Shown here: positions 3,174-64,000 of the stretch, piece by piece
Numbering within the stretch: position 1 is the stretch's first letter
Layout of the letters: each line of letters starts with the position of its first letter
Origin: Eubacteriaceae bacterium ES3
Lineage (GTDB): Bacteria; Bacillota; Clostridia; Eubacteriales; Eubacteriaceae
NCBI GenBank assembly: GCA_030586155.1
Contig: CP130741.1
Span: 2,784,680 to 2,848,679, forward strand
Direction of reading: 5' to 3'
DNA length: 64,000 nucleotides
Program-made: the position numbers and the translations under genes
The notes under the pieces: generated by a model
Told to the model about the DNA's origin: nothing
The model's input: the letters and a program-made list of their open reading frames with translations, nothing else
Databases searched by the model: none

Positions 3174-3271
3174 TTCGCCTCCAATTTCACATCAATTTTT
3201 GATGTTTATTACCGATAATATTATAAAAAAGCCTTTAATTGCAGACTATGACTCCAATTAAAGGCTTTTAA

Positions 3272-3649
3272 TTATTCCGTGATACTTTTTTTATAATCTT
3301 CGATAGCAGCCTGAATCGCTTCAGCAGCCAGCACCGAGCAATGGATTTTTTCGTTAGGGAGTCCGCCCAGGGCTTCAACTACTTCTGAATTCTTTAGTTT
3401 TGCAGCTTCTTCAATATTCATCCCGATAATCATGTCCGTGGCCATACTGCTACTGGCTATAGCCGCTCCACACCCAAATGTTTTAAAAGATGCGTCCTGA
3501 ATGATTCCCTCATCATCAATCTGCAGGAATATCTTCATGATATCACCACAAGCCGGGCTACCTACTTGTCCCACTCCATTTGCCTGTTCTAATTCACCAA
3601 CATGTTTGGGGTTCTGAAAGTTCTCCATTACTTTATCTGTATAATCCAT
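3272..3649 (-). CDS. iscU: Fe-S cluster scaffold protein IscU/NifU-N type
   Basis: Scaffold on which Fe-S clusters are assembled from cysteine-desulfurase sulfur before transfer to apoproteins. At 125 residues it is the U-type scaffold domain alone, without the NifU C-terminal domains. The three cluster-ligand cysteines are present: C34 (SPACGD), C60 (FGCGAA) and C104 (IHCSVL), with the Asp after C34. It lies 20 bp downstream of the desulfurase and is the last gene of the iscR-iscS-iscU operon. Clostridial genomes often call this pair nifS/nifU; no nitrogenase genes are nearby, so housekeeping use is more likely. Confidence 0.95.
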   Translation of the reverse strand: MDYTDKVMENFQNPKHVGELEQANGVGQVGSPACGDIMKIFLQIDDEGIIQDASFKTFGCGAAIASSSMATDMIIGMNIEEAAKLKNSEVVEALGGLPNEKIHCSVLAAEAIQAAIEDYKKSITE

Positions 3650-48570: not shown

Positions 48571-48845
48571 CACTTGCCTCCTTCATTTTTTACTGGTCTG
48601 TTATCTTCATTTAAAACAAACCTGCTATAGCCTTCTAATGAAAACCTTATCATGATAGGACAAGTGTGTCAACGACCATACAGGCGAAATAATTATCTAC
48701 TAACAGGAATTTTTCAACTTTAAACAAATCAGACTTTAATTTGCGGAATCATTTTTTCCATTCTCATTTTAGCCATACAGGCCCAATCAATCAGAATATC
48801 CAATATTATCATTTCCTAATATCGTTGCTTAATGCTCAATGGTGA

Positions 48846-48874
48846 TTGAAGATTATAATCATTCGTGATATACT
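48846..48874 (+). promoter_or_regulatory. sigma-A type promoter of the 73-residue gene
   Basis: TTGAAG (48846-48851), 17-bp spacer, TATACT (48869-48874), followed by a leader of about 90 nt. The leader includes a small hairpin CAAGCCA...TGGCTTG (48900-48935). The rest of the 48574-48970 gap shows no other feature I can support except the unseen ribokinase promoter. Confidence 0.65.
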
Positions 48875-48970
48875 TAAAATACTTAAATTTCTATTCATCC
48901 AAGCCAATCTGGTTCAAGAGCAATAATCTGGCTTGAATGACAGAAGTTATTACTTCTACAGGAGGAAAAA

Positions 48971-49192
48971 ATGAAAGATCTAACTAAATTATCAGACAAA
49001 GAATTAAAAGATATGCTGACAAACCTGAAAGAAGAATTGCAGGATGTAGAAATGGAGCGGGGATTTATGACTAAACAATCCGGAGTCCATGTGTCCAGCA
49101 GTAAAATTTCATCACAGATGGAAGAATTTGACACAGAAATTGAAAAACTCAAGAATCAGATAAAAGACTGCGAAGATGCAATGTGCAAGTAA
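48971..49192 (+). CDS. small coiled-coil hypothetical protein
   Basis: 73 residues, highly charged and almost entirely helical with heptad-like Leu/Ile spacing (DKELKDMLTNLKEELQDVEM at about 8-27 and EFDTEIEKLKNQIKDCEDAM at about 52-71). AGGAGG lies 7 nt before the ATG; a promoter and a terminator frame it. Real expression is therefore likely. No family recognised; the middle MTKQSGVHVSSSK is a short non-helical hinge. Confidence 0.75.
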   Translation: MKDLTKLSDKELKDMLTNLKEELQDVEMERGFMTKQSGVHVSSSKISSQMEEFDTEIEKLKNQIKDCEDAMCK

Positions 49193-49206
49193 ACTGCTAA
49201 AATAAG

Positions 49207-49239
49207 AGACGCAGAGACTGTCTAAATGTCCCTGCGTCT
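49207..49239 (+). terminator. terminator after the 73-residue gene
   Basis: AGACGCAG (49207-49214) pairs with CTGCGTCT (49232-49239), followed by TTTATTAATTT. Confidence 0.75.
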
Positions 49240-49298
49240 TTTATTAATTTCTTAGTGGAAGAAAAATATCTTTTAGCTTCCGCTAAGATATTTTACAA

Positions 49299-49907
49299 CT
49301 AATTTGGTACTATGGCTGGTAATAAAAACATTCTTTCCAACTCTCCAATCAAATACATTTCAAGTAACAATCTTAGTGAAAATTCACCATAGTACTCTTC
49401 TATTTCAGATTCAAATACAACCTTTGTTCCACTTGTAAAAATCTTATAATCACCTAGCCATGATTTTAAGTAACTGACCATATCGTCAATGTCAATATTA
49501 GGATTAACTTTTTTTGCTATTCGATAAGCAAACTCTTCGGGACTTATATTGTTAAGATTAATGTAACCAGTTGTTTTTCTTAGCCCAGGAATTTGAGTTT
49601 CATCTAATCTAGCAGGTAAAATATATTCTTCTCTACTTTCAAATGCTCTTGCTTGAGCACTCTCTCTTTCATAATTAGTCCACAACTTTTCTTTGTAGTT
49701 CTTTGATATAAACATTACACAGTATTTAGATTTCTTTTGATAAATTTCATCAAGATGAGTATATAAGTTCTTACCCCATAAATCAATTTCCACATATTTA
49801 TCATAAAAAACTTCAATTCCCATTTCTTATAATACATCAGCAACTTTTTCAACATAATCTCTATCTTCTCCCGCAAAAGAAAGAGCAACATCATATTCAT
49901 AAGTCAT
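49299..49907 (-). pseudogene. TIR-domain protein with in-frame stop
   Basis: From the ATG at 49907 (GGGGGTG upstream) the frame reads MTYEYDVALSFAGEDRDYVE, the first strand and BB-loop approach of a bacterial TIR domain. It hits TAA at codon 27 (49827-49829), then continues GIEVFYDKYVEIDLWGKNLY and YCVMFISKNYKEKLWTNYER. The presumed NADase Glu is in NYERESAQARAF. A C-terminal ~55 residues follow the TIR fold. An ATG two codons after the stop (49823) could restart, losing the first beta strand. Restored length is 202 residues. It is the third gene of an operon with the endonuclease (25 bp) and methyltransferase. Either a nonsense mutation or a sequence error. Confidence 0.88.
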
Positions 49908-49931
49908 TTTTTCACCCCCAAGAATCATTTA

Positions 49932-51230
49932 TTATCTAGCTAAATCCAAAATCCAATTAATCCAACCTGATATTGTTGATGCTCTACGTTTATAGGTTGA
50001 CTCTGAATTAACATTATATAATCCTGACTCTTCCATAATTTTTACAATATCATTTCTTGATGGAAGTTCAAGTTCAGATAAATATTCTTTAAATGCTTCA
50101 TTAAACGCCCTTTTTTCCAATATACATTTAACAAACGAAAGATTTCTGTTTTTAAGATTTAATCTAAAAATACTCCTTCCTTTATCTGTCAAAAAGTATT
50201 TAACCCCTTCAATTCGTTCTCGTTCCTTATCTACTAATCCCAAATATCTACATGCATCAGTATAATAATTCGTTTGCCTTATATCAAAATCATAATTGTA
50301 TGTTATCTCTTCACGAGTCAAAAACTCATTTTCATTTAGTAACTCGCAAATATTTATCACTCTTTTAAAACTATCAGCTTGTGGGAAAGGAATTCCATCA
50401 GGCTCATTGGTAATTGAAATTTGATTCATCATAGAAATAATCTCATCTATTTGAATATCTTCTTGCTCGAGTGTATAGTTTTTTTGTTTTACTAAAACTA
50501 GTGAGCTATAGTTATTTGGATCCTGAAATTCATATTCGCAAAGATTAAATACACCATTTGTATAGGTTAAGAACACTGGCTTAACAGGTTTTCTTACTTT
50601 TCCTTGCCACAATCTAAATGGATAATACAATTGCCTTACCAAAAAATCATCAGACAGCGAGTTTTTAGCTTCAATCAATGTAAGCGAATCAAATCCTTCA
50701 TATCCACCGTCAATTTCAATCTGCGAGTTTACAACAGCAATATTTTGAAGTTGCCTAGATACTTTATTATAAATATTAAAGTCAAACCTTTCAGAACTCA
50801 TCCTACCATTGACAGTAGGTAATAATGTTTCCTCTCCGATAAAATCCGCTAAAATTCCTGATAGATAAGCAACATTAATTGCTGTTGCTTCACTTGTTAT
50901 ATTTTCAAAATCTATACTATGAATAAAGTCAGGAGCAACCACTTTATTAATTCCTGTGACAGGTGATTCAAAATCATGATAGGCTTCAAAATTAGCAATT
51001 ACATAACTGCCACGTGTGATAGGCAATATAGATAATTTATTTTCTTCAAACAGAATAGGCAAGTTACTTCTATGATCAAATTTGGTCATAAGCCTTGCCT
51101 CTCTAAACTCATTTATTTGTTTTGCTGTAATTTCATAAAGACCGCTTTCCTCAACGCATCTAATGATATTATACTTATCAAATATCTTTTCCCATGCTTT
51201 ATCATTGAGGGTTTTCGGTTTATTACTCAT
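49932..51230 (-). CDS. probable type II restriction endonuclease
   Basis: 432 residues. A central PD-(D/E)XK-like core is visible: IEIDGGYEGFDSLTLIEAKN near residues 172-191 (Asp then E-A-K), followed by a QLYYPFRLWQGK helix. The C-terminal half has winged-helix-like segments (EFLTREEITYNYDFDIRQTN) and an odd repeat of N-terminal wording (CVEESGLYEITA and MEESGLYNVNSE). The start overlaps the D12 methyltransferase stop by 8 nt, which strongly suggests a restriction-modification pair. Specificity cannot be read; GATC is a guess from the methyltransferase class. Confidence 0.82.
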   Translation of the reverse strand: MSNKPKTLNDKAWEKIFDKYNIIRCVEESGLYEITAKQINEFREARLMTKFDHRSNLPILFEENKLSILPITRGSYVIANFEAYHDFESPVTGINKVVAPDFIHSIDFENITSEATAINVAYLSGILADFIGEETLLPTVNGRMSSERFDFNIYNKVSRQLQNIAVVNSQIEIDGGYEGFDSLTLIEAKNSLSDDFLVRQLYYPFRLWQGKVRKPVKPVFLTYTNGVFNLCEYEFQDPNNYSSLVLVKQKNYTLEQEDIQIDEIISMMNQISITNEPDGIPFPQADSFKRVINICELLNENEFLTREEITYNYDFDIRQTNYYTDACRYLGLVDKERERIEGVKYFLTDKGRSIFRLNLKNRNLSFVKCILEKRAFNEAFKEYLSELELPSRNDIVKIMEESGLYNVNSESTYKRRASTISGWINWILDLAR

Positions 51231-52059
51231 AGTTCCTCACCAATACTTCGTCTACTTCACCACGAGCATCACCATTTGAATTAATGGCCCTCTTTGCTTG
51301 TATAATTTCAATTGTATAATCCTTATACAAGTCAAGAATAAAATCAGTTGATGCATTTGATAGAAGAAATTTTATTCCTCTTTGATTCAATTTATCACAC
51401 AATCTTTTCAACCGAATTTGCTCATCTCTGTCAAAACCACCTTTAGCGTATCCTGTAAAATTGGAACTATCTGAAACAGGATCATAAGGTGGATCAAAAT
51501 AAACAAAAGCACCTTGCCTAATTCCTTTTACTGCATCTTCAAAGTCTGTATTCCTAAACTCAACCTTAGCTTCATTAAAATATTTACTTACTGCTCTTAA
51601 TGTGATTGGGTTCTCAATATTTGGATTTTTATATCTTCCAAAGGGAGAGTTAAATTGCCCAGCTTGGTTAACTCTAAATAATCCGTTATAGCAAGTTTTG
51701 TTCAGATAATGAACTCTTGAAGCACGCTCAACACTTGTAAGTTTATTATAAATTGAAGGGTCTCGATCCCATGCACGTATCTCATAGAAATAATCTGCTT
51801 CATTCTTGTGTTTAGTTAAATCTTCAATTAATGCTTCAACATCATCTTTAACTACTTGGTACAGATTAATCAACTCACTATTGACATCATTTACAATTGC
51901 TTTTTGTGGTTGAATATCAAATAATACTGCACCGCCACCAACAAAAGGCTCATAGTAAGAAGTAATCTTTTTCGGTATGTACTTTCGTATTTCAGGTAAC
52001 AATTGTCTCTTTCCACCAACCCATTTAAGTATTGGTGAAGCCAATTTATTGTATTTCAT
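51223..52059 (-). CDS. D12-class DNA adenine N6-methyltransferase
   Basis: Dam/DpnM-type enzyme. The SAM-binding region is PILKWVGGKRQLLPEI with YYEPFVGGGAVLFD (motif I). The catalytic motif IV is VYFDPPYDP (DPPY) near residue 195. The conserved NKTCYNGLFRVN region lies between. The start is taken at MKYNKLASPILKW with GGAG upstream; an ATG 11 codons earlier is less likely. About 278 residues. First gene of the modification-restriction-TIR operon. Confidence 0.93.
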   Translation of the reverse strand: MKYNKLASPILKWVGGKRQLLPEIRKYIPKKITSYYEPFVGGGAVLFDIQPQKAIVNDVNSELINLYQVVKDDVEALIEDLTKHKNEADYFYEIRAWDRDPSIYNKLTSVERASRVHYLNKTCYNGLFRVNQAGQFNSPFGRYKNPNIENPITLRAVSKYFNEAKVEFRNTDFEDAVKGIRQGAFVYFDPPYDPVSDSSNFTGYAKGGFDRDEQIRLKRLCDKLNQRGIKFLLSNASTDFILDLYKDYTIEIIQAKRAINSNGDARGEVDEVLVRNYE

Positions 52060-52180
52060 ATCATTAACTCCAATCCATAGAACATTATGCATCTTTTGTC
52101 AAGAAAACTTTCCCGAAAATCATTGCATACCATTCTCATTATACATCATTTGCCTAGTAATATAAATAGGCTGATTAGAA

Positions 52181-52430
52181 TTATCCATTCAAAATCTGTC
52201 CATTTACTACTTCAAAAAGCTTTTCATATTGAACCCTCAATTCATCAACATCACGTTCAGTAACTTCATTCTGAAAATTCACTTGCCTTGCTATTTGATT
52301 TATATTAACTCCAATAGCATTGACCTCCTTTAATCCATGTAAATCATGCTTTATTATGTAGCCATCTACACTAACACTTCTTAAATAATCGCTCATAGAA
52401 AAATTACAATAGCTGCTGTTAGAATATAAA
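52181..52430 (-). pseudogene. mobC fragment (mobilisation protein, 5' end lost)
   Basis: The reading frame ends with MobC-type wording: DYLRSVSVDGYI, GVNINQIARQVN and a C-terminal coiled segment (VDELRVQYEKLFEVVNG). MobC assists relaxases at oriT. The N-terminal part stops at the left end of the IS3-family element at 52430; the codons before it in the same frame belong to the IS end. The missing 5' part is not on the other side of the element, so the insertion came with a deletion. No relaxase remains next to it. Confidence 0.8.
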
Positions 52431-52508
52431 TAGTACAAGTGAAAATGAGAAAGTCCAAAATAGAAAAACATGATACAATAAATCTATCATTAAACGGAGG
52501 ATCTCATT

Positions 52509-52793
52509 ATGGCAAAACACTTTGATAAACAGTTTAAGTTCGATGCAGTTCAATACTATCAGGACCACAACGATCTTGGATTACAGGGATGTGCATCGAA
52601 TCTTGCTATCAGTCAGCAGACGCTTTCCAGATAGAAGAAAGAGCTGCAAGATTCTGGCGACATTGAATGTCGGGGATCTGGTAATTATGCTTCTGATGAA
52701 GAAAAAGAAATTGCCAGATTAAAACGTGAATTACGTGATACCCAGGATGCGCTTGATGTATTAAAAAAAGCCATCGGCATTCTGGGAAAATAA
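52509..52793 (+). pseudogene. IS3-family OrfA with amber codon
   Basis: HTH_8-type transposase subunit: the frame opens MAKHFDKQFKFDAVQYYQDH, then LAISQQTLSR, and meets TAG at 52632-52634 where relatives carry Trp (SRWKKEL). The rest, including the leucine-zipper LKRELRDTQDALDVLKKAIG, is intact up to TAA at 52791. One base change (TGG to TAG) explains it. OrfA and the OrfAB fusion should be absent unless the stop is suppressed. Confidence 0.9.
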
Positions 52794-52870
52794 CAGAAGC
52801 CATCTATCAGGAGGTTTCTGAAAAGGCAAAAATTACCCATAAGGAAGACCGCCGAGTTTCTGTCTCCGGA

Positions 52871-53704
52871 GTGCTGAAAATTTTAGGCGTTTCCCGGTCC
52901 GGATACCGGGCCTGGCTTAACCATGTGCCTTCTGATTTACAGAAACGTAAGGAAGCCGTAAAAAGTAAAATCAAAGAAATCTATCATGACTCCCATCAGA
53001 ATTATGGTGCGCCTAAAATCAGGATAGAGCTGCAAAAGGGCGGTGAAACCATTTCAGAACGCACTGTCGGTAAATATATGAAAGAAATGGGCATCAGAGC
53101 TCAATGGATCAGACCCTGGACAACGACAACTAGAGATTCAGATTTTAGTCATGAACTTCAGAATATTCTGGATGAACGCTTCAATCCTGAACGCCCAAAC
53201 GCGGTTTGGTGCAGCGACATAACGTATATCTGGACAATTTATGGTTTTGTCTATCTGACAAGTATTATGGATCTCTACTCCCGAAAAATCATTGCCTGGA
53301 CGCTTTCAAAAACGATGGAAGTATCTTGTGTAATTGATACGATTAATAAAGCAAAAGCACGGCGTTGTACTGAACTGCCATTGATTTTGCATTCAGATCG
53401 CGGCAGCCAATTTGTTTTAAAAGAGTATCGAAAGGCAACGGCTAAAATGCAACGAAGCTACTCTAAAAAGGCATTTCCCTGTGACAATGCATGTATTGAA
53501 TCTTTTCATTCCCTCCTTAAACGGGAATGGATAAAGCGCTTTAAAATCAGTGATTTCAAGCATGCCTATCGGCTTGTATTTGAATATATTGAATCCTTTT
53601 ATAATACAAAACGGATTCACAGTCATTGCGATTTTATGTCGCCCGATGATTTTGAAAAACTATTTACAAAATTGAACAAATCAGATTTGCAATTAGCTGG
53701 TTAA
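52871..53704 (+). CDS. IS3-family transposase OrfB
   Basis: rve-type DDE integrase core: Asp in WCSDITYIWT, Asp in LHSDRGSQF, Glu in DNACIESFHSLLKREW. The listed start is a GTG. The frame is open further upstream (TEAIYQEVSEKAKITHKEDR) to the orfA end, and it is normally reached by -1 slippage on the AAAAAAAG run near 52761. 277 residues as listed, about 310 with the upstream part. Catalytic residues are intact, but synthesis needs orfA. Confidence 0.9.
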   Translation: MLKILGVSRSGYRAWLNHVPSDLQKRKEAVKSKIKEIYHDSHQNYGAPKIRIELQKGGETISERTVGKYMKEMGIRAQWIRPWTTTTRDSDFSHELQNILDERFNPERPNAVWCSDITYIWTIYGFVYLTSIMDLYSRKIIAWTLSKTMEVSCVIDTINKAKARRCTELPLILHSDRGSQFVLKEYRKATAKMQRSYSKKAFPCDNACIESFHSLLKREWIKRFKISDFKHAYRLVFEYIESFYNTKRIHSHCDFMSPDDFEKLFTKLNKSDLQLAG

Positions 53705-53764
53705 AATGAGGATAAACTTCTCATTTTAATTTGTACTAAATCTTGACAGAAGACCCGTCTAGGA

Positions 53765-53971
53765 TACGCCATTACCTATAACGACCTAAAAATGAACAGT
53801 CGATTGGAGCAGTGGTACAATCGCTATCAAGAAAAGAAAAGTGATTTAAAGGACAGTGAAGAAAATAAAGAGCAAATTGAATCAGATTATTTAGAGTGGA
53901 AAACTCGATATCCGTTTAGCATTGCAGAGAATCAAAAGAAATTGATATACAAGGAAAGAAATAAAGACTAA
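53765..53971 (+). pseudogene. unrecognised C-terminal gene fragment
   Basis: An open frame from a stop just inside the IS end encodes GYAITYNDLKMNSRLEQWYN and a charged helical tail ending KKLIYKERNKD. No start codon or ribosome site precedes it, so it looks like the 3' remnant of a gene cut by the IS3-family insertion. Family not recognised. It converges on the guaA scar. Confidence 0.5.
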
Positions 53972-54015
53972 AAAATGTTTTTGGAGTCAAAAGTCAGTCA
54001 AAAGACAAAAATAAA

Positions 54016-54049
54016 ACCCGAAACCCCTGTGTTTACAAGGTTTTCGGGT
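54016..54049 (-). terminator. terminator following the guaA remnant
   Basis: ACCCGAAACC (54016-54025) pairs with GGTTTTCGGGT (54039-54049); T-rich on the minus strand (TTTTATTTTTG). It lies 11 bp beyond the guaA stop and is presumably the native guaA terminator. Confidence 0.8.
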
Positions 54050-54059
54050 ATTTTTGTCG

Positions 54060-54131
54060 CTACTCCCACTCAATCGTTGAAGGTGGCTTACTGGTAATGT
54101 CATAAACAATTCTGCTGACGTGTTTTACCTC
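54060..54131 (-). pseudogene. guaA: 3' end of guaA (GMP synthase), attachment-site scar
   Basis: The last 23 codons of GMP synthase are present on the minus strand: [20 protein letters not shown] followed by EWE and TAG (54060-54062). This is the most conserved stretch of GuaA and a known integration site for genomic islands. Upstream of codon 1 of the remnant (above 54131) the reading frame turns into unrelated sequence. No other part of guaA is in the window. Most simply it is the att copy left when an island integrated into guaA. Confidence 0.88.
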
Positions 54132-54393
54132 GAAAGGGCTTACGCAAACGGCTCTGTTATGCGATTTTTCAATTAGGAATGCCGGTATTGGCTACGAAGT
54201 AAAGCCGATAACTGGCTACGTTTTAATCATCATAACATGAATTTTAAATTATGACAATATGGGATTGAGATAAATTTTTTAAACCAATAGTTGATATAAT
54301 TTAATTATAGTATACCAAAATACAACCCCAAAGTTACCCGTTAAACAACAACAATCAACACAATTATTGATTTCTATCAATTTGGACTTTCAA
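54132..54393. other. junction region right of the guaA scar
   Basis: 262 bp without a gene. It has two copies of TGGCTACG (54188 and 54212 area) with AAGCCGATA between them, then A/T-rich sequence that leads to the convergent 3' end of the membrane protein gene. Likely island-end sequence. Confidence 0.4.
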
Positions 54394-55818
54394 TTAATTA
54401 ATGTATTCACTCATACATAAGTGAACTTTATTAAAATTTCTAATCTCTCTTTTTAATAGCTCTGCTTGTTCTTTCTTATTCACTTTTAAACTCGCATAGT
54501 ATAAGATGTATTTTAAATCATCCGTCATAAAAAGCCACAAATCATTATTGAGAAGCGATTCTATTTTCCCGTAATCCTTCCCTAACATGAATAACACTAT
54601 TGCATATTCTTCGACTACATCATAAAACAACATTTCATTATCTGATCTCTTGTTAATCTTTTCTAAATACTTAGCTTTCTCCGTCAAAGATTCGTATTTA
54701 TCAATATGTACAAAATAGTCTATTCCATTGATAAGCATACTTTCCTTTTGATACTGTTTATCATTATATATTTTTAATAATTCTTTTATTTCTGATAACT
54801 CAAGTTTCCAATATATAATAATCTGTCTAATCAATAATTTTTCAGATATTGATTCACTCATTTCAGTTGTAATATTTATTACCTCTTTAATCAACTTATC
54901 ACAATCTGTCACCTCATTTAGTAGAAATCTGTTGCTTTCCGTTTCAATTTTGTTTTTTAACTCTTTAAATAAATTTATTACTCGTTCTATTGAGAAAAAC
55001 ACTGCAACTAAGACTAATCCTATATTTAGGATACTCAAATTAAAAGTGTTATTGTTCAATAATACAAATGGAATAATAATTGCATATACAAGTATCTTTC
55101 TTATTATATTCGTCACCATATTTTCTGATGAATTGATCCATATTAACAATACTATTGAAAAAAATAATATCGTTAAAAGCACCCCTGAAAAAACTGGAAA
55201 CAAATATTTAAATGCTATTACAAATCCAATACAACCTAAAATCAATTTTATACTTGTCCAAATTTTGTTTTTATGCCCATGATATACATATATGTCATTG
55301 AAATAACTTCCATATCTAATTAACTCAAAATACTTTCCTTTTCCAAAAGGAACAAATATTCTTAATGCAATAAAAACAGCAACCATTATGAAGATAATAA
55401 ATTTAGTCTCTTCATACATTAAAAAAAGTAAAATTCCTTGAATCGCTACAATTATGACAAAAATACTTTTTCTCTTTATTTTGAATTTTAATAATATTAA
55501 AGCAATACCAACAATTCCAACACTACTTAAAATTAATTTCAATTCAGCTGGTGAAAACCCGATAAAATATGGTGTTACATATACATCTCTATTTCCCATA
55601 CTAAATAACAAAATATTATTTAATTCCTCTGAGAAACTAATAGGAAATGTATTCCTAATCAAGGAAAGGAATACACCAATAATCAATCCTAACTCACAAA
55701 AAAAGAAACATGAGTAAAAATCTTTCTTTTTTAATGATTCCCCGCTGTACTTTTTGATCAATAGCATTATCATATTATTAATATTATTAAGTATCACAAA
55801 AATATCTTCACCTTGCAT
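54394..55818 (-). CDS. unrecognised membrane protein with cytoplasmic helical domain
   Basis: 474 residues. About eight hydrophobic segments lie at about 33-57, 88-107, 110-126, 130-147, 183-203, 205-226, 238-255 and 262-282. A soluble, almost entirely helical and charged C-terminal domain (about 285-474) follows. GGAGG stands just before the ATG. It starts 18 bp after the stop of the preceding gene, so the two form an operon. No family recognised. Codon use is much more A/T-rich than the chromosome to the left, which fits transfer. Confidence 0.75.
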   Translation of the reverse strand: MQGEDIFVILNNINNMIMLLIKKYSGESLKKKDFYSCFFFCELGLIIGVFLSLIRNTFPISFSEELNNILLFSMGNRDVYVTPYFIGFSPAELKLILSSVGIVGIALILLKFKIKRKSIFVIIVAIQGILLFLMYEETKFIIFIMVAVFIALRIFVPFGKGKYFELIRYGSYFNDIYVYHGHKNKIWTSIKLILGCIGFVIAFKYLFPVFSGVLLTILFFSIVLLIWINSSENMVTNIIRKILVYAIIIPFVLLNNNTFNLSILNIGLVLVAVFFSIERVINLFKELKNKIETESNRFLLNEVTDCDKLIKEVINITTEMSESISEKLLIRQIIIYWKLELSEIKELLKIYNDKQYQKESMLINGIDYFVHIDKYESLTEKAKYLEKINKRSDNEMLFYDVVEEYAIVLFMLGKDYGKIESLLNNDLWLFMTDDLKYILYYASLKVNKKEQAELLKREIRNFNKVHLCMSEYIN

Positions 55819-55836
55819 ATTCCCTCCAGTTATGAT

Positions 55837-56943
55837 TTACACATTTATAAAATACTGCAATGTTAAAATAAGTGCTTCTAAATTTTCTTTCATATATATA
55901 AACATTTTATTGAAATCACTCACTGTAAGGTTATGCCTTGTTTTAAAGCTGTTGTAATAATCCATACCTGTTTCCAAATCATCATGATTATAATGAACTG
56001 TATTTCGTATTGCTTGAATCACTTCCCGATAACTAGCATTATCAAAATCAACTTGTGAATCTGCAAAAATATAATTGAGCTTGCTTTTTGACTGAGAATA
56101 CTTTAAAAGGTTTTCGATACTATCAAATATTTCGTCATATTTAATAGAAAGATTTTTTAAAACGATCCATCTAGACTTAGAATTATCGAATAGCTTATCA
56201 CCATCTATAACTTTAAAATACTGAATATATGTCCAACTTGCAACAGCAAGACATAACAATATCCTAAAGTTCGTACTAACATCAATACCATTTTTATTTA
56301 AAAAGTCATCACTCTTTTCATCAGATAATGAAATTTCAAAGTTGAGGGGTCTAATTTGTACTGAAGGCAATTTAACCTTGCTAATACCAAAATTTACTAT
56401 ACATGATAAAGTTCCGCTAATATTTTCAGCAAATTCTTTAAAGTCTTCGCCTTTATACTCTTGTGCAAAATGGTAAACAAAGTAACTGCATCCTAAAAAA
56501 ATAGATTGCTTTCCGTCATTGTAATACATACAGCTGATATCATCATTGGTAAGATCATTATTTTCATCAGCCCAAGCTTCAAATTCATCTATTCTATCAC
56601 CAATAATTTGGTTAGCTTTTTTTTGATATGATCCTTTTTTGTTATATAGATGCATATTATTCCTAACATCTTTTATTCTTTCATAGCTCTCAACAGTCAG
56701 ATGCTCAAATATTTCAGTATATAGTTCCTCATTATGTTCTTCAAAATACTGAATGCATTCATAGATAAACACTGCACTATCAAAACAAATATTTGTACTC
56801 AAAAATACAATCAATCCATCCCCATCACCAAATTTTGTTTTTGGATGCAAGATATTCGTTTTAATAACATGCTTTATTAGCTCAAGATAAAATTGCGCAC
56901 GAAGTGAAATATCACTTTCAATTGGATTTTTTATTTTCATCAT
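55837..56943 (-). CDS. unrecognised protein with two RNxxH motifs (HEPN-like?)
   Basis: 368 residues, mostly helical, soluble. Two similar motifs occur: VRNNMHLYN near residue 95 and IRNTVHYNH near 326. Each sits in a charged helix (ERIKDVRNNMHLYNKKGSY; EVIQAIRNTVHYNHDD). RN-x-x-H-like wording recalls the Rx4-6H active site of HEPN ribonucleases, though the spacing in both is R-x3-H (the second also fits R-x6-H). Other parts show no known motif. First gene of the operon with the membrane protein; a 640-bp repeat-rich region lies upstream. Confidence 0.65.
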   Translation of the reverse strand: MMKIKNPIESDISLRAQFYLELIKHVIKTNILHPKTKFGDGDGLIVFLSTNICFDSAVFIYECIQYFEEHNEELYTEIFEHLTVESYERIKDVRNNMHLYNKKGSYQKKANQIIGDRIDEFEAWADENNDLTNDDISCMYYNDGKQSIFLGCSYFVYHFAQEYKGEDFKEFAENISGTLSCIVNFGISKVKLPSVQIRPLNFEISLSDEKSDDFLNKNGIDVSTNFRILLCLAVASWTYIQYFKVIDGDKLFDNSKSRWIVLKNLSIKYDEIFDSIENLLKYSQSKSKLNYIFADSQVDFDNASYREVIQAIRNTVHYNHDDLETGMDYYNSFKTRHNLTVSDFNKMFIYMKENLEALILTLQYFINV

Positions 56944-57209
56944 TCAGCTCCTTAAATTTTAGCTACAGCAGATCATACAATTGATCCAATTTCTAAATTT
57001 AATTACTGTTAAATTCTATCAATTAATACTGAGTAATTCAAGAAAATTCAGATTATTGTGTTCTAACACCAATCTCATTCACCGAAGTGTCAAGATCTTA
57101 ATTATAAACATGAGTCGACAAGTGATATGTATGGTTGCTCTTGTGATATCTTGCTGTTCGTGAATATGGCTCATGTAACCAGATTCCTAAATATCACCAC
57201 TTTTAATTA

Positions 57210-57535
57210 GGGTGAGAAGTTTATTTCTCTATATATAAGAACAATCTTTTCACCCTTTTATATAAACCCTTCTAGCATTCCATTTGTAAAACAAACATTA
57301 GCAACTGACTGTAAAGAAGTTGCCTGTCATCATATTACGAGAATACGGGTAATTGATGACAAGAATCACCATAATTAGATCGTTCTCCAAGAATTAGAGA
57401 CTAATATCATGGGTGACAAATCACTTTTTCCTATATAAAGAATATCTATTTGTCACCTTTTAATTACTGCTACTTTAATGTTATTCAGCAATGACAAAGA
57501 TTTTTTTACTTATATAGAATATTTCTTTGTCATTG
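57210..57535. repeat. cluster of four spaced inverted repeats
   Basis: Four separate palindromes in 326 bp. (1) GGGTGAGAAG 57210-57219 with CTTTTCACCC 57246-57255, one mismatch. (2) TGTCATCA 57325-57332 with TGATGACA 57354-57361. (3) GGTGACAAAT 57412-57421 with ATTTGTCACC 57448-57457, perfect. (4) CAATGACAAAGA 57489-57500 with TCTTTGTCATTG 57524-57535, perfect. Arms share TGACA-type wording. Spacers are 26, 21, 26 and 23 bp. Spacers 1, 3 and 4 share a CTATATA/TATAGAATA-like core. The whole 56944-57584 gap has no other feature. Confidence 0.8.
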
Positions 57536-57584
57536 TATTCTAAGCTCATTGACAGTCATCAATGATCTTTGAACCCCATAAGTC

Positions 57585-58158
57585 CTACGAATTATGGGCT
57601 TCGATATTGTTAAGATCCATCAACAGACTATATAATTCCTTATCATCTGTAAGTGTTTCAAGATTATCTAAACAGGAAATATTTATAAAGTACTCATCCT
57701 CATTAATTGGTATCACTTCAATATCTGGCTTTAATTTCAAAATCTTCTTAGCTGATTCAATCGGGTATTTAGCATAACCATATTTAGCAAAATTAACTCC
57801 ATAATTATCACAGCATTCACATACTTGATAAATGTCATAATCATGAAACAAGCTGTAAGAACGTTTGCTACTGGTTCTTTCTGTCTCAATCATCACTAAG
57901 TCAAGTTCACATTGTTTGATAAATGGCTTCAATTGAGTTGTTATCCCAAGCTTATTATCTGATAGACTCATCAATTCAGCAATTTCATCTTGTGTTGTAA
58001 AATTAGCTTTGCTAAATGCAAGCCTTTCAAGATGGCTTTTAATCCTTCGCTCTTCCTCATATGAACACAGTCCATAATAAGGATTTTGGCTTTTACACTT
58101 GTTGATTGTAAAACAGTTTGTATTGTCTTCAATCAGCTCATGGCTGAAACTGGAGTGT
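57585..58158 (-). pseudogene. 3' part of a helicase gene split by an IS
   Basis: The open frame begins within a few codons of the left end of the IS3-family element (after TAA near 58158) and reads HELIEDNTNCFTINKCKSQ, YYGLCSYEEERRIKSHLERL, a small HTH-like segment (FTTQDEIAELMSLSDNKLG) and a C-terminal helical domain. It ends in NIEAHNS. A hairpin CCCATAA...TTATGGG overlaps its stop region. No start codon with a ribosome site lies near its beginning. It is the continuation of the helicase at 59409-60767, which breaks off at the other end of the same IS. Confidence 0.75.
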
Positions 58159-58227
58159 TATCATAAAAGTGCAGTCCCAAATTGCAAGGAAATGAGGTAA
58201 AATAGAAATAAAAAGGACTGACTAATA

Positions 58228-58515
58228 ATGAAAAAAATATATAGTGCTGAAGAACGCTATGAAGCGTTGAAACTGGCAAATGAGATTGGCAACAAAGCGG
58301 CAGCAGAGCGATTAGGTATAAAAATCGATACATTATACACATGGATCAGCAAAGCTAAAAGTGGAAAGGTTGGTTTTTGTGATGATCCAGGGAATATCCC
58401 TCCAACAGATCCCAATCGTTTAAAGCAGCTCGAAAAAGAGCTACGGGAAGCAAAAGAAGAGATTGAGATTCTTCAGGATGCGCTTGGTTTTTTTGTCAAG
58501 CGCCGAAAGAAATAG
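58228..58515 (+). CDS. IS3-family transposase OrfA
   Basis: 95 residues. An HTH_8-type domain (YSAEERYEALKLANEIGNKA then RLGIKIDTLYTWISK) is followed by a leucine-rich coiled coil (LKQLEKELREAKEEIEILQD). It ends RRKK. The frame leads into OrfB through -1 slippage on the CGAAAGAAAT region near 58502, as OrfB wording (KEIAKQQR) continues in the -1 frame. Intact. Confidence 0.9.
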   Translation: MKKIYSAEERYEALKLANEIGNKAAAERLGIKIDTLYTWISKAKSGKVGFCDDPGNIPPTDPNRLKQLEKELREAKEEIEILQDALGFFVKRRKK

Positions 58516-58529
58516 CAAAACAGCAGCGG

Positions 58530-59405
58530 ATGTCATATATTACCGACCGCCGGGACCGTTGGCCGGTTGCCCTGCTCTGTCGTACGCTTGGTGTCAGCGA
58601 ATCAGGTTACTATAAATTTCTGCGATCAAATAGTAAACCAGATAAGCATGCGAATCTTTTGGCGCAAATCTATGAATTAATTCAGGAAGACGAAGAAAAC
58701 GCCAATTATGGTGTTCGACGTATTTATGATTATCTTCGATTAAATCGGGACTATCATGGGAGTTTAAGGACGATCTACCGGATCTGTAAAGAAAATAATC
58801 TGATGATCTGCATGAAGCGTAAACCCAATGGGATCACGAAAGCCGATGCCGAAGCGCAAAAGTCTGAAAACCTCATCAAACAGGATTTCACAGCGGAAGC
58901 GCCGAATCAAAAATGGCTTACGGATATCACGGAAATCCCCTGTAAAGATGGAAAACTTTATCTGGCACCCATTTTTGATTGTTATGACGGCAGTATCCGG
59001 GGCTTCAGGATGGATGACAACATGCGGGCAGACCTTTGTGTTGAAGCGTTTCAGAAGGCCTGCAGAGATGATGGTGCCGAAGGAATGATCCTTCATTCCG
59101 ATCGAGGCACGCAGTTTAACAGCCAACGCTTTCGAAATGTATTGAAAAAAGCAAATGCCATCCAGAGTATGAGTGGCACCGGGCGTTGTTATGATAATGC
59201 CCGGATGGAAAGTTTTTTCGCAACGCTGAAAAAAGAGAAGCTCTATAAAATTAATACCAAAAGTATGCCCATGGTTGAAGTCAAAACGGTTGTTTACCGC
59301 TATATCCATTATTATAATCGACGACGAATTTACAGCACAAATAATGGGTATCCACCGCTGGTTTATCGGGGGCTTTTTATCGACAATCAACAGCTCGCTG
59401 CATAG
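58530..59405 (+). CDS. IS3-family transposase OrfB
   Basis: 291 residues with an HTH_21-type N-terminus (ANYGVRRIYDYLRL) and an rve core: Asp in KWLTDITEIP, Asp in LHSDRGTQF, Glu in DNARMESFFATLKKEK. The listed ATG lies in the -1 frame relative to orfA and is open upstream for a few codons. Catalytic residues all present. Confidence 0.92.
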   Translation: MSYITDRRDRWPVALLCRTLGVSESGYYKFLRSNSKPDKHANLLAQIYELIQEDEENANYGVRRIYDYLRLNRDYHGSLRTIYRICKENNLMICMKRKPNGITKADAEAQKSENLIKQDFTAEAPNQKWLTDITEIPCKDGKLYLAPIFDCYDGSIRGFRMDDNMRADLCVEAFQKACRDDGAEGMILHSDRGTQFNSQRFRNVLKKANAIQSMSGTGRCYDNARMESFFATLKKEKLYKINTKSMPMVEVKTVVYRYIHYYNRRRIYSTNNGYPPLVYRGLFIDNQQLAA

Positions 59406-59408
59406 CAT

Positions 59409-60767
59409 TTAAAATTGTGAAGGCTGTTCCCGACGATGAGGGCTGGTTATCCCATAGGGACTCGGATAATTCCTTGCAGGTTTTGACTGAACTATTATTG
59501 ACAATTCCAAACTGACCTTTTCCAGTATTTTATACAGCAAATACCTGACAGGAATTGGTGAGAATTTGGCAATATCAGGTTGGTATTGACCAAAATATAT
59601 CCCTGTTACTGACTCCAATGTTTCCTTAATAATGAATCTATCATAATATTGTTCAATCAAATATTGTGCCATATCACAAAAATGTTTATACAGATATGAA
59701 TATACCTTGCTTTCAATGCCATCATTGTACATTCTCATGAACTCTTCTTTAACGTCTTCATTTGTCAGACTAAAATGTGATGCAGCATTATTTATTAAAC
59801 CCTCTTCATATTCTGTTAGAACTGGTCTGGTAATATAAAATACTGGCTTAACGTTTCTCGCCCTTGCCATGAACTGCCATAACAGGGTAAAGTCTCCCCT
59901 TCTATATTCATCATCAAACATACAATAGATATCTGTAATATTTTCATTAACAAAGTTGATCCCAACATCTACCCATGATGTAGCAATCAGGACATTGTAA
60001 TCAATTTGGTTATTTTTGGTCAGTTCTTTAAAAATCCGTTCTTCATCACTGCATGGATCTCTGTTCTGTGAACTTATCCCAATAGATTTAATTCCGGTAT
60101 TGTTTAATTTTTCTGCCAATTTCTCAACTCTTTTAGTATTGTTAATCAAAACAACCTGCATGGAATCATTGTCTGAATTGTATCGCTCTTTTATAAGATC
60201 TTCAACCTTACTTTCAGCATATCCCTCCATCACACGAACTTCTTTAACATATTCTTTGTCTGTAATGATCTCAATTCTGGCACAAATATCATCATATATT
60301 GGAAAACCTTCCAGACACTTAAGAATATCCGGTGTCGCTGTGGTCAGAATGATTGGCTTACCTGATTTTTTGAACTCATCAAAAGCTTTTATGATGTTAT
60401 CTGTCTGTTGATAGGCGAAACTGCTATACTGAACAGCCTTGTGGATCTCATCTATTACCAGAAAATCAACGTCATTCGCATTCTCTTGAATATGTTCAAC
60501 AGATTGAAAGAATGTATTGGGTAAAGCTTTTGTATCGCCATATTTGTCTTTTATAGATGCTGAGAAATATTGGTTTGTTAATGCCCTTGTTGGTGAAATG
60601 ATGATACTGGGGGTTTCAATATTCTGAAAATAATAACTCTTGCCTGTTCCCTGTGGTGCTACCAATAAGATAACCTGATGCTTTTCAGCCGTATCTTTAA
60701 TTAATTCCATAAGTTCAGTGTCTTCCATGATGTAGTCAGACTTTAGTTTATATTTAATTGCCTCCAA
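59409..60767 (-). pseudogene. DEAD/DEAH-type helicase, 3' end displaced by IS
   Basis: Superfamily 2 helicase: Walker A VAPQGTGKSYYFQ near residue 38, SPTRALTNQYF (Ia), Walker B FLVIDEIHKA (DEIH) near 120, LTTATP (III), LINNTKRVEKLAEKL (IV), TSWVDVGINF (V) and QFMARARNVKP (VI, QxxxRxxR-like). Host sequence ends near SIIVQSKPARN; the following YPSPYGITSPHRREQPSQ is IS-derived. The remaining ~190 codons are at 57585-58158. It overlaps the recombinase gene by 14 nt, so it belongs to the mobile element. The truncated product keeps all helicase motifs. Confidence 0.85.
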
Positions 60768-61350
60768 TCACATCACCACCTTTGTTTTGTTTAGCTTCAT
60801 AAGCCTTAACTTTCCTGTAAAATGTGGGTTTCGATAAATTTAGCTTTTCCATTGCTTCAACAGCCATGATCTTTTCAGCCTTCCATTCGTCATAAACCTC
60901 TTTAAACTGCTTTTGATCAACTTCAATGGGCTTACGTCCTTTATATTTACCTTCAGCTTTAGCAATGGCAATACCTTCTTTCTGTCTTTCAAGCATACAT
61001 TCACGCTCAAACTGATAAATACCTGCGAAAATAGTCATCATTAACTTGCCTTGTGCTGTTGTTGTATCAATCTTTTCTTTCTGGCTTATAAAATCCACAC
61101 CCTTTTCATTGAGTCTTTCAACAGTTTTAATAAGATCAACTGTTGACCGTGACAATCTGGAATAGGATTCCACCACTAAGGTATCACCTTTTCTGAGGTA
61201 CTCCATCATTTTCTTGAACTGTGGTCGATTAGTATCCTTGCCAGATACTTTGTCGACATAGATCTCTTCAGCACCCAAACAATTCAGAATTTCTATCTGT
61301 CTTGCTTCGTTCTGTTCCTCTGTACTGACTCTCACATATCCTACCTTCAT
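60754..61350 (-). CDS. serine recombinase (resolvase/invertase family)
   Basis: Site-specific recombinase: catalytic Ser in VGYVRVSTEEQNEARQ near residue 9, then VDKVSGKDTNRPQF, VVESYSRLSRSTVDLI (RLSR) and the E-helix QFERECMLERQKEGIAIAK. It closes with a small HTH (EAMEKLNLSKPTFYRKVKAY). The start is the ATG at 61350 with GGAGG 8 nt upstream; an ATG five codons earlier has none. About 198 residues. It overlaps the helicase gene by 14 nt. Confidence 0.94.
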   Translation of the reverse strand: MKVGYVRVSTEEQNEARQIEILNCLGAEEIYVDKVSGKDTNRPQFKKMMEYLRKGDTLVVESYSRLSRSTVDLIKTVERLNEKGVDFISQKEKIDTTTAQGKLMMTIFAGIYQFERECMLERQKEGIAIAKAEGKYKGRKPIEVDQKQFKEVYDEWKAEKIMAVEAMEKLNLSKPTFYRKVKAYEAKQNKGGDVIGGN

Positions 61351-61365
61351 TTCTCTGACCTCCAT

Positions 61366-61989
61366 TCGTTTAATCTTCTATAGAATAGCATGAATCATTT
61401 TACGTGTCAATAGGATATATTTTTATATCGATACGTTTCTTTATTGTATATCCAGTTCTTGTGAAACGTAAATCACCACATATATTTAGTATCACTAGAC
61501 TATGCCCTAATGATACTCAAATGCAATACTCTACCAATATCTGTTCCCGTTGTAATTCTTTATTATTTATATGGATATAACAACCTGACACAACCTCAAA
61601 ATCAATACCATTATATTTAGAGGGGGTAGTTTACTAAAAAAATAAGTGCTAGAATTCCCTGACACAGCGGGGTTCCCTAACACTACAATCTGGAAATAAT
61701 TGACCGATGCTCGATCACCAAACTAAAAAAATTTGGTAAGCTGTTCCCATGTTACCGTTGCATTCATTATCGTTGTCAAACATCTTTTATTCATTAAAAA
61801 AAGCCCTTGATACAGGCTTTTCATAGTAAATATAGTGTTTTCTTGAACCTGTCAGACTCTTTAAAATTTCAGGGTATATAAGAACACCTAAAATTAATTT
61901 TCTCTTGTCTGACGGCCTCTCAGGGCTTTATTTTGCCATTATAATGCTGTTAATTCATTTTAATATCTCTTTATTTCATATATATTGAT
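61366..61989. other. recombinase upstream region and integrase 3' flank
   Basis: 624 bp without a gene. Near the recombinase start is an inverted repeat ACGTTTC (61433-61439) with GAAACGT (61463-61469), a candidate res-type site. Further on, TTCCCTGACAC and TTCCCTAACAC form an imperfect direct repeat (61654 and 61672 area). The right half holds the integrase terminator and A/T-rich sequence with CTGTCAGA/TCTGACGG wording. Confidence 0.5.
61800..61820 (-). terminator. terminator after the tyrosine integrase
   Basis: AAAGCC (61800-61805) pairs with GGCTTT (61815-61820); on the minus strand it is followed by a run of T (TTTTTTTAATG). Confidence 0.65.
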
Positions 61990-62961
61990 TTATCTTGTCT
62001 TATACTTACCAAAATCATGTTTTTTCTTAATACTGAAATCTTCCAGAGGGTTTATGTCATCCACAATATTAACGATATCATTAACATCAAAATTATAATA
62101 ATGATTGAGCATTGTCAGATTTTTATGACCTGTGATTCTTTTCAATACCAGTGGTGAAACACCTTTTCTCACGCTCAATGTAATAAATGTATGTCTAAAC
62201 AAATGGACTGATGTCTTACTAACTCCATGCTCTTTGCAATACTTTGTGACACTTGCCTGTAATGTGGTTCTTGCTAAAGGTTCCCCAAATATATTACAGA
62301 ATAGCGGCTCATCTGGCAGACCATTTCTAGCTTTCAGATATTCATTAAGCACAACAAATAAGGTACTGCTGATAGGAATCACACGGGGTTTCCTGTTCTT
62401 TGTATGATCTAAAGATATTAGGTTATTTTCTAAATCAACATTTTTAATTTTTAGTTCTCGTAACTCTTTTGACCTTATACCTGTTGAGATTAATGTATTG
62501 ATGATAACCCAGGTGCGATAGTTTGAGAATGATTTATTTGCCGGTCTTTTTAACAATGCTTCAAGTTCACTGTTTGAATAGATTTCTTTCGTTGTTTCCT
62601 GTTCGATCACCTTTCTAAATTCAATTTTATTTGGTATATAGCCCTTTTTCGCTCCATAATTGATAATAGGGGAAATCTTATACTGATAGGAATTGATTGA
62701 AGTGTCCTTAATCCCTTTGTCTGCAAGCCAAATAACATAATCATCAACAAGTTCTTGCGTTATATCACAACATTTAACATTCTTACCTGCAAAGTCCATA
62801 AAATATTTACTGGCATACTCATAACCTTTAAATGTAATATCCGATGTTCCTTTTCGCATACACTCCTTTTCATATAGATCAACTAGTTCTTTATAAGTCA
62901 TTTTTTCAATCTCAATATTACCAACTCTCTTTTTGCCTGTAGATTTCCACCCTTTTTTCAT
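61990..62961 (-). CDS. tyrosine-family site-specific integrase
   Basis: 323 residues. A SAM-like N-terminal DNA-binding domain (about 20-110, YKELVDLYEKECMRKGTSDI) precedes the catalytic domain. Catalytic Arg is in STGIRSKELREL near 168, HLFRHTFITL (HxxR) near 257, GHKNL near 280, and the nucleophile Tyr in LNHYYNF near 290. Typical of integrative elements and small phages. The N-terminal AP2-like arm is absent. It may be the integrase for the guaA-linked island, or of a nested phage remnant. Confidence 0.93.
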   Translation of the reverse strand: MKKGWKSTGKKRVGNIEIEKMTYKELVDLYEKECMRKGTSDITFKGYEYASKYFMDFAGKNVKCCDITQELVDDYVIWLADKGIKDTSINSYQYKISPIINYGAKKGYIPNKIEFRKVIEQETTKEIYSNSELEALLKRPANKSFSNYRTWVIINTLISTGIRSKELRELKIKNVDLENNLISLDHTKNRKPRVIPISSTLFVVLNEYLKARNGLPDEPLFCNIFGEPLARTTLQASVTKYCKEHGVSKTSVHLFRHTFITLSVRKGVSPLVLKRITGHKNLTMLNHYYNFDVNDIVNIVDDINPLEDFSIKKKHDFGKYKTR

Positions 62962-62975
62962 TGTGTTTAACTCCT

Positions 62976-63230
62976 TTATACTACAATAAAATCCTGAACC
63001 TCTTCATTTTTGAACTTTTTAATAAAGTAATCATCAATATCCTCACAGAATAAATTATATCTGCTGATATCACCACCTAAGTTCATGATTAACTGGTCAT
63101 CAACTTCCAATAGTTCACCAACCAGACACCTTGTAACATCTTCAGATATTGCACCACTGTCAAACAAATCGGATAATCTCACACAAAATATCTCGATTTT
63201 CTCTTTAATTCCATTACAACATTCGTTCAT
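62976..63230 (-). CDS. small acidic hypothetical protein
   Basis: 84 residues, acidic, with two N-terminal Cys (NECCNGIKEKIEIF) and helical wording (DVTRCLVGELLEVDDQLIMN). It has AGAGG before its ATG and ends 15 bp before the integrase start, so it is probably cotranscribed with it. No family recognised. Possibly a phage-type accessory or excisionase-like protein, but no HTH is seen. Confidence 0.6.
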   Translation of the reverse strand: MNECCNGIKEKIEIFCVRLSDLFDSGAISEDVTRCLVGELLEVDDQLIMNLGGDISRYNLFCEDIDDYFIKKFKNEEVQDFIVV

Positions 63231-63265
63231 TTAATTACCTCTTTCAAGTTTTTATTTTAATTGTT

Positions 63266-64000
63266 TTAAATCACCTTCGCAAATTCCCCAACACTTATAC
63301 TGTTATTGCACTTAAGCATACAATCAGCAAAATCGGCTTTAGGTTGCAAGGCTTTAATGATACTGTCCTTATCTGCCAGTGTATTTTGCATGATATTAAG
63401 GGCCTTTGCCATAATCATCAAATCACTGTCACCTTGATCCACTGGAATGTAACCACCTGTTTTGCGGATCTGTGGGAGAACCTCATCAAATATCCATGCT
63501 TCAAATCTTATGGCTGAAGGAAGTTGGCTGCTTGCAATAAGTCGGTATAAATCACCTTCAGGAATGAAAAGCATTTGTTGGACTCCGCCATTGGTAGGGA
63601 TGCCCTGTTTTAGGGCACCCTTGCAATGAATGTTAATTGCATTTTGTGGTCTTGCATACCCCAACGCACTGGCCACATCACTTCCACAAAAGTACGTTTT
63701 ACCATCTTGATCAATCACCCGAATAGCGCCAAATTCTGAATTTTCAAAGTTCATTAAATCGCTAAAATCCCCATTTAAAGCCATTTGAGTGGTGTTGATG
63801 TTTTTAACTTGTGGCATCACATCATCGTCAATCCATCGTTTAAAGCGTTTGGCTGAGGGTAGTTTACTTGACATGATGAGTGAGTAAAGACCGGATTCGT
63901 TGATTAAGATAGTATCTTGCATTCTTCCTAGTTTATCTATGAGGCCCTGTTTTAGGGCATCATCATCATCAACATGAGTTGCAATAGCATTTCTTGCTTT
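63266..64000 (-). CDS. phage antirepressor with repeated BRO-N domains (partial)
   Basis: The frame is open to the right edge (codons read KARNAIATHVDDDDALKQG at the boundary), so the N-terminus is outside. Two BRO-N units are seen. The first is cut by the edge and ends LPSAKRFKRWIDDDVMPQV. The second has VIDQDGKTYFCGSDVASALG through LPSAIRFEAWIFDEVLPQI. The C-terminus begins the KilAC-type wording ISVGEFAKVI and stops there, so the usual C-terminal DNA-binding domain is missing. Likely a phage-derived regulator that has lost its tail. Confidence 0.8.
   Translation of the reverse strand, partial: KARNAIATHVDDDDALKQGLIDKLGRMQDTILINESGLYSLIMSSKLPSAKRFKRWIDDDVMPQVKNINTTQMALNGDFSDLMNFENSEFGAIRVIDQDGKTYFCGSDVASALGYARPQNAINIHCKGALKQGIPTNGGVQQMLFIPEGDLYRLIASSQLPSAIRFEAWIFDEVLPQIRKTGGYIPVDQGDSDLMIMAKALNIMQNTLADKDSIIKALQPKADFADCMLKCNNSISVGEFAKVI

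Follow-up and report, generated by a model that had tools for sequence, protein, structure and literature searches.

The HEPN superfamily is defined by the Rx4-6H motif, and many of its families, although not all, also have an acidic residue in helix 2, often within an Ex3[KR] signature. PrrC-type anticodon nucleases carry an N-terminal ABC ATPase, and their genes are embedded among hsd genes. In most cases, N, D, or H follows the arginine of the HEPN motif (PMC3710099), and the motif is described as ending helix 3 (PMC3710099, section 7). Links to restriction-modification (RM) systems are described for at least 16 HEPN clades (PMC3710099, section 10); the same section describes PrrC of the PrrI hsdMSR locus, which the restriction enzyme keeps in check until a phage disables this enzyme. 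The two HEPN domains of Cas13 pair within a single chain, whereas AbiF, a representative of the AbiD/AbiF (Abi_2) proteins, has one RNQCAH site (Rx4H) per chain and forms homodimers (PMC12373285). AbiF is accompanied by an RNA antitoxin encoded upstream, the non-coding RNA RCd22 (PMC12373285). Finally, bacterial membrane-associated HEPN proteins are described as having one or two helices fused to the HEPN domain (PMC3710099, section 15).

The genes studied here, P1 and P2, lie at positions 54394-56943 of the window, by which we mean the whole 64,000-nt stretch of DNA that was analyzed. Similarly to the RM-linked HEPN toxins, P1 has a relative that is a guest in a type I restriction locus, an RN-containing motif, and a presumed action on RNA. 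It differs from PrrC in that no ABC ATPase part and no match to HEPN profiles were found, in the Rx3H spacing of its motifs, and, in the window, in adjoining a membrane protein rather than type I genes. According to the ORF list and family scans, embedding among hsd genes is a feature of the relative and not of P1 of the window. P1 shares with Cas13 the presence of two R-N...H sites per chain, but it is only 368 aa long, has a shorter motif spacing, and shows no detectable homology to Cas13. An RN..H-type motif and structured non-coding DNA upstream are common to P1 and the AbiD/AbiF group; however, P1 has two Rx3H sites, no Abi_2 match, and no demonstrated RNA motif in common with AbiF. The combination of a membrane part with a putative cytoplasmic RNase recalls the membrane-associated HEPN proteins, but here eight helices reside in a separate protein, P2.

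The P1 and P2 Genes

The coordinates of all features are collected in Table 1. A sequence-only reading of the window had described a two-gene operon with genes 18 bp apart on one strand, encoding a soluble protein with paired RNxxH motifs and a membrane protein of about eight helices with a cytoplasmic domain of approximately 190 residues. This description of the genes was confirmed. Both ORFs are uninterrupted, are separated by an 18-bp gap, and have a Shine-Dalgarno-like stretch ahead of the start codon (AAGGAG for P1 and GGAGGG for P2). The GC content of P1 (28.5%) and P2 (25.5%) is below that of the rest of the island (33.4%, positions 48600-64000). Given the short gap, the common strand, and the low GC of both genes, their co-transcription and shared history are plausible.

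P1 is probably soluble; the only 19-residue stretch past the hydrophobicity threshold (residues 43-61) exceeds it barely (1.64 vs. 1.6). In P2, eight hydrophobic segments were computed, followed by a tail of 197 residues. Under an alternating model with the N-terminus inside, 15 lysines and arginines fall among the 78 residues of the inner loops (tail excluded), compared with 3 among the 47 residues of the outer loops.

Table 1. Features of the P1-P2 locus and of the element that carries it (window coordinates).
Feature	Position	Strand	Basis and remarks
73-bp direct repeat (guaA 3' end), left element boundary	54060..54132	minus	Identical copies
P2, membrane protein, 474 aa	54394..55818	minus	Uninterrupted ORF; no homologues in the collections searched
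P2, C-terminal tail, 197 residues, predicted cytoplasmic	54397..54987	minus	Positive-inside count
P2, eight predicted membrane helices, residues 36-277	54988..55713	minus	Hydrophobic segments; probably N-in/C-in
P1, 368 aa	55837..56943	minus	Uninterrupted ORF; one relative (genome G010), no convincing family match
P1 motif 2, RNTVH, residues 313-317	55993..56007	minus	Within identical run IRNTVHYN
P1 motif 1, RNNMH, residues 94-98	56650..56664	minus	Within 18-residue identical run IKDVRNNMHLYNKKGSYQ
Non-coding structured stretch with several hairpins of ~48 bp	56944..57584	minus	Folding vs. shuffles; operon membership doubtful
Helicase piece similar to C. difficile plasmid helicases	59409..60767	minus	Same element, outside the operon
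Tyrosine integrase of the element	61990..62961	minus	Profile match

Conservation of the RNxxH Motifs

Both reported RNxxH motifs of P1 were found, one in each half of the protein. Of 100,000 shuffles of P1, 12 contain two RNxxH motifs; when the broader pattern R[NHD]x2-5H is allowed, two motifs turn up in 1.3% of 20,000 shuffles. Since the motif was chosen after the sequence had been read, its conservation is a better test than these shuffle statistics. The single relative of P1, encoded in genome G010 (another species of the genus to which the host of the window belongs), is 56% identical to P1 and does not differ from it in either RNxxH block, so that the conservation expected of homologues was observed in the one relative available. 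Motif 1 is included in the longest identical run (18 residues, IKDVRNNMHLYNKKGSYQ); runs this long arise in 0.3% of 20,000 column shuffles. The motif-bearing parts of P1 (residues 1-138 and 215-368, with 53.6 and 64.9% identity, respectively) are better conserved than the middle (residues 139-214, 42.1%). Three of the nine histidines of P1 are conserved in the relative, two of them being the motif histidines, and the six conserved arginines (of 10) include those of both motifs. As the comparison is based on one pair of sequences, it supports, rather than proves, the functional importance of the motifs.

Relation of P1 to HEPN Proteins

The spacing is Rx3H in both motifs of P1 and of its relative, which is outside the Rx4-6H range; because this applies to all four sites, we describe P1 as possibly HEPN-like in action rather than as a member of the superfamily. 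H320 of P1, which would give an Rx6H spacing, is N in the relative. In all four sites the arginine is followed by N, as is typical of HEPN proteins. Acidic residues are kept between the two proteins in the segments FDSAVFIYE and YDEIFDSIENL, and the Ex3K signature at residues 277-281 of P1 is ExxxE in the relative. Our literature search found no paper coupling HEPN with the Rx3H, RxxxH, or RNxxH forms of the motif.

As had been noted from the sequence, neither protein matches a recognizable family: Pfam, NCBIfam, PADLOC, and PHROGs yielded no convincing match for P1 or P2. Neither protein had a PADLOC or NCBIfam match when the E-value limit was set to 1 (0.1 for NCBIfam); at the limit of 1, Pfam gave one match each, both far below the cut-off (E = 0.087 for P1 and 0.2 for P2), and PHROGs gave weak matches, two for P1 (E = 0.033 and 0.054) and one for P2 (E = 0.2). 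The relative and the separate halves of P1 were scanned at limits of 5 (Pfam and PHROGs) and 1 (PADLOC), with weak matches or none. The best match of the relative is the helical bundle T6PP_N (E = 0.002, 18.5 bits vs. a cut-off of 25), which is absent for P1. HEPN models of Pfam, PADLOC, and PHROGs (and of NCBIfam for P1) matched neither P1 nor its relative nor the P1 halves, although divergent HEPN proteins can escape such models. No ABC ATPase domain was detected by Pfam in P1 or the relative, and a comparison of the P1 halves by hhalign revealed no sequence similarity that would indicate an internal duplication (E = 0.13-0.3). Two HEPN families of Pfam, PF18730 and PF18739, were sought as a source of comparison profiles, but were found in 1 and 0 of 99 genomes, respectively, with the control genomes negative, which is too few for this purpose.

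AlphaFold2 models built without an alignment were unusable, with a mean pLDDT of 38.2 for the full P1 and 48.7 for residues 215-368. A helix ends near motif 1 in the full-length model (84-95) and near motif 2 in the model of residues 215-368 (305-316); the two models conflict at motif 2, since the full-length one has a single helix running through it (305-337). The folds that Foldseek and VIA-align matched to these two poor models were unrelated and did not rise above the noise. One match, to the HEPN-MNT complex SO_3166-SO_3165 (Z = 4.8), also lay within the noise and was given no weight. Sequence searches against solved structures gave nothing credible. Membership of P1 in the HEPN superfamily is thus unproven.

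Distribution of P1 and P2

P1 was found in 2 of 61 genomes (its own and G010), 2 of 67 genomes of the order, and 2 of 391 genomes of the class, and in its own genome only among 398 genomes of the phylum; these four sets overlap. The class count excludes five of seven matches, weak ones dropped by eye (two penicillin-binding proteins, MurD, an ABC transporter protein, and a hydrolase), and the phylum count excludes one of two, another weak match to a penicillin-binding protein. The relative used as a query had no match in 324 genomes of the phylum, a set without a positive control. P2 was found solely in its own genome, both among 40 genomes of the family and, after inspection, among the 391 genomes of the class, where nine of ten matches were dropped (an iron-sulfur hydrogenase-like protein, two related proteins of flagellar loci, a cation efflux protein, MurF, other membrane proteins, and short frames containing stops).

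Outside these sets, plasmids and phages searched by tblastn gave nothing for P1, P2, or the P1 relative, and viral contigs had no P1 or P2 match to exact peptide patterns, which reach close relatives only. No P1 was detected in E. coli genomes at the DNA level. In the genome_contigs collection, the two-row P1 alignment produced 161 pattern matches, none of which was confirmed. A DNA pattern for I[RS]NT[IVM]HYN found 28 stretches in the same collection, 2 in long enzyme-like ORFs and 26 in ORFs shorter than 70 codons; no P1-like gene was recognized in any of them, with two of the short-ORF stretches (L033 and L036) beyond judging, as they are cut by the locus end. Within the searchable collections, P1 therefore represents a very rare family and P2 is an orphan.

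The P1 Relative in a Type I Restriction Locus

In G010, the relative of P1 is located inside a type I restriction locus (L012), where a piece of hsdS, hsdR, the P1 relative, hsdS, and hsdM follow each other on one strand. The GC content of the P1 relative (27.8%) is far below that of hsdR (45.7%), hsdM (47.4%), and hsdS (39.0%), and for this reason it looks like a separately acquired guest. A Fic/DOC-family gene (L012, positions 2668-3432) is situated upstream of the same locus; DOC toxins are mentioned near RM-HEPN loci (PMC3710099).

A P2-like gene is absent beside the P1 relative, and none was found elsewhere in the G010 genome. Co-occurrence of the two genes, proposed as a check of the system, was thus not observed in the one other locus (0/1): the only case open to checking lacks the dedicated pairing of P1 and P2, which weakens this interpretation, and P2 is best regarded as a local, optional partner of P1. 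Of the defense system proposed in the sequence-only reading, a defense role of P1 gained support from the restriction locus, whereas the pair as one dedicated two-gene system lost ground. The two genomic contexts, a restriction locus and the end of a mobile element, favor a role of P1 in defense.

The guaA Element

The left 73-bp repeat has a second copy 751-823 bases past the end of the window (genome G000, 2849430-2849502, corresponding to about 64751-64823 in window coordinates). The right copy constitutes the 3' end of an intact gene of 515 codons, which we take to be guaA, as recognized by eye from the translation. Tyrosine-integrase elements are known to insert at the 3' ends of guaA genes, and the direct repeats described in the study consulted measure 12 to 54 bp (PMC4701971). 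The window thus contains most of an element of ~10.7 kb that is integrated in the guaA 3' end and bounded by the 73-bp direct repeat; P1 and P2 are its leftmost genes, i.e., its end cargo. Other genes of the element encode a tyrosine integrase, a serine recombinase, a Bro-N antirepressor, and a plasmid-type helicase. The helicase has partial matches in 49 plasmid records, all from Clostridioides, and no viral relative was found for it. By eye, an IS3 element at about 58163-59408 appears to interrupt the helicase gene (57585-60767), and the 129-aa ORF at 57585-57974 looks like its remaining end.

Structured DNA Upstream of P1

Compared with 20 shuffles per strand, the 641 nt upstream of P1 fold more stably, with z = -4.84 for the minus strand and z = -5.66 for the plus strand, but the minus-strand 160-nt windows adjoining P1 are ordinary (z = -0.55, 1.44, and 0.07). 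Four of 185 windows, all located elsewhere (-6.05, -4.74, -4.61, and -4.03), are more structured than the best upstream window (-3.88). Hairpins of ~40-55 bp occupy positions 57143-57565; three of them (57489-57536, 57410-57458, and 57208-57258) share a loop of the TATTCT/TGTTCT-TATATA type and differ in their stems. This hairpin series is possibly a replication origin or an RNA. Rfam produced no match inside 56944-57584 (two matches at E ≤ 5 lie outside the stretch and are sub-threshold), and no terminator-like site was found in 54300-57700. Apart from its own genome, the stretch has short matches in 8 of 60 relatives (about 22-52 bases, E = 0.0016-0.0099), which we take as chance, and no match in plasmids.

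The 258 nt that separate hsdR from the P1 relative (L012, 8771-9028) are also structured (z = -5.92, with 0 of 200 shuffles as stable) and crowded with near-perfect hairpins; they share no sequence with the upstream stretch of the window. As this upstream stretch comes after a helicase gene of the replication type, a plasmid origin is at least as likely as an RNA antitoxin. The gap at the corresponding place in one C. difficile plasmid, folded for comparison, is structured as well (z = -3.19, 100 shuffles).

Proposed Role of P1 and Alternatives

Our tentative preference, a little short of an even balance, is to see in P1 a HEPN-like RNase effector whose two halves carry one site each, a mobile guest of defense loci with P2 as a possible partner here. 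Each half, carrying one R-N-x-x-H site, would pair with the other within the chain into a composite metal-independent active site, in the manner of the Cas13 HEPN domains. P1 would be kept inactive in healthy cells, and infection would free it to cut RNA, either of the host or of the phage, leading to abortive infection or dormancy. By analogy with PrrC, the restriction subunits could restrain the P1 relative in G010, and P2, which is probably co-transcribed with P1, could perhaps do so in the window as a tether, sensor, or inhibitor. It is improbable that P1 and P2 form a new defense system in which the eight-helix P2 gates P1 as a soluble single-chain Rx3H RNase, with membrane damage or change in infection releasing RNA cutting and a type I enzyme controlling the same effector elsewhere, i.e., a swappable effector with exchangeable sensors.

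P1 may instead be a helical defense protein of another, undescribed fold, in which RNxxH is a structural or binding motif and the protein acts as a sensor or regulator of the neighboring restriction genes. We consider this rather unlikely, since the R, N, and H of each motif copy are conserved and N after R is the typical HEPN choice (PMC3710099); it would agree with the non-HEPN spacing, the missing HEPN profile matches of P1, its relative, and its halves, the sub-threshold T6PP_N helical-bundle match of the relative, and the dissimilarity of the P1 halves. A serious candidate, held just as tentatively as the HEPN-like effector and overlapping with it as far as P1 is concerned, is that P1 and P2 are unrelated neighboring cargo, P1 acting alone or with the restriction system and P2 serving, e.g., transport or the exclusion of related elements. 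The sole P1 relative has restriction genes and no P2 as neighbors, and P2 is confined to its own genome among both 40 and 391 genomes, whereas the 18-bp gap, the same strand, and the GC of both genes below that of the island speak for a closer connection.

The structured DNA raises the question of whether P1 belongs, as the toxin, to a module controlled by RNA, with the upstream stretch as its RNA antitoxin in the way of RCd22 and AbiF (PMC12373285). The z-scores of this stretch (-4.84) and of the hsdR-relative gap (-5.92) point in this direction, but the two stretches are dissimilar in sequence, both strands are structured, the windows adjoining P1 are ordinary while more structured ones exist elsewhere, a terminator-like site is missing from 54300-57700, and an origin is as likely, the C. 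difficile plasmid gap being structured at the same place; we regard such a module as very unlikely. About as little weight can be given to P1 and P2 as decaying, functionless passengers: the genes are very rare in the searched genomes and, by eye, an IS3 element seems to have broken the helicase gene that they share the element with, but the reading frames are intact and have ribosome sites, and conservation is concentrated around the motifs.

If P1, as the preferred reading has it, is an RNase, a HEPN-type site tolerates a spacing shorter by one residue, and profile libraries miss such effectors. The occurrence of a P1-type effector in two contexts, a restriction locus and the vicinity of a membrane protein, would then make it possible to test whether the partners that control suicide RNases can be exchanged. 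If P1 is not an RNase, a rare defense-island family with a strictly kept pair of RNxxH motifs is still to be explained.

Surroundings of the Element

Defense and mobility genes, which had been noticed around P1 and P2, are indeed present: apart from those within the element, there are, to the left of the 73-bp repeat, a MobC-like gene, an IS3-family transposase, genes for a Dam-type methylase and for a type II restriction enzyme, and a TIR piece. The latter, an ORF of 174 aa at 49299-49900 that encodes a TIR domain, overlaps a second short frame upstream and adjoins the type II restriction pair; it may be a broken TIR defense gene.
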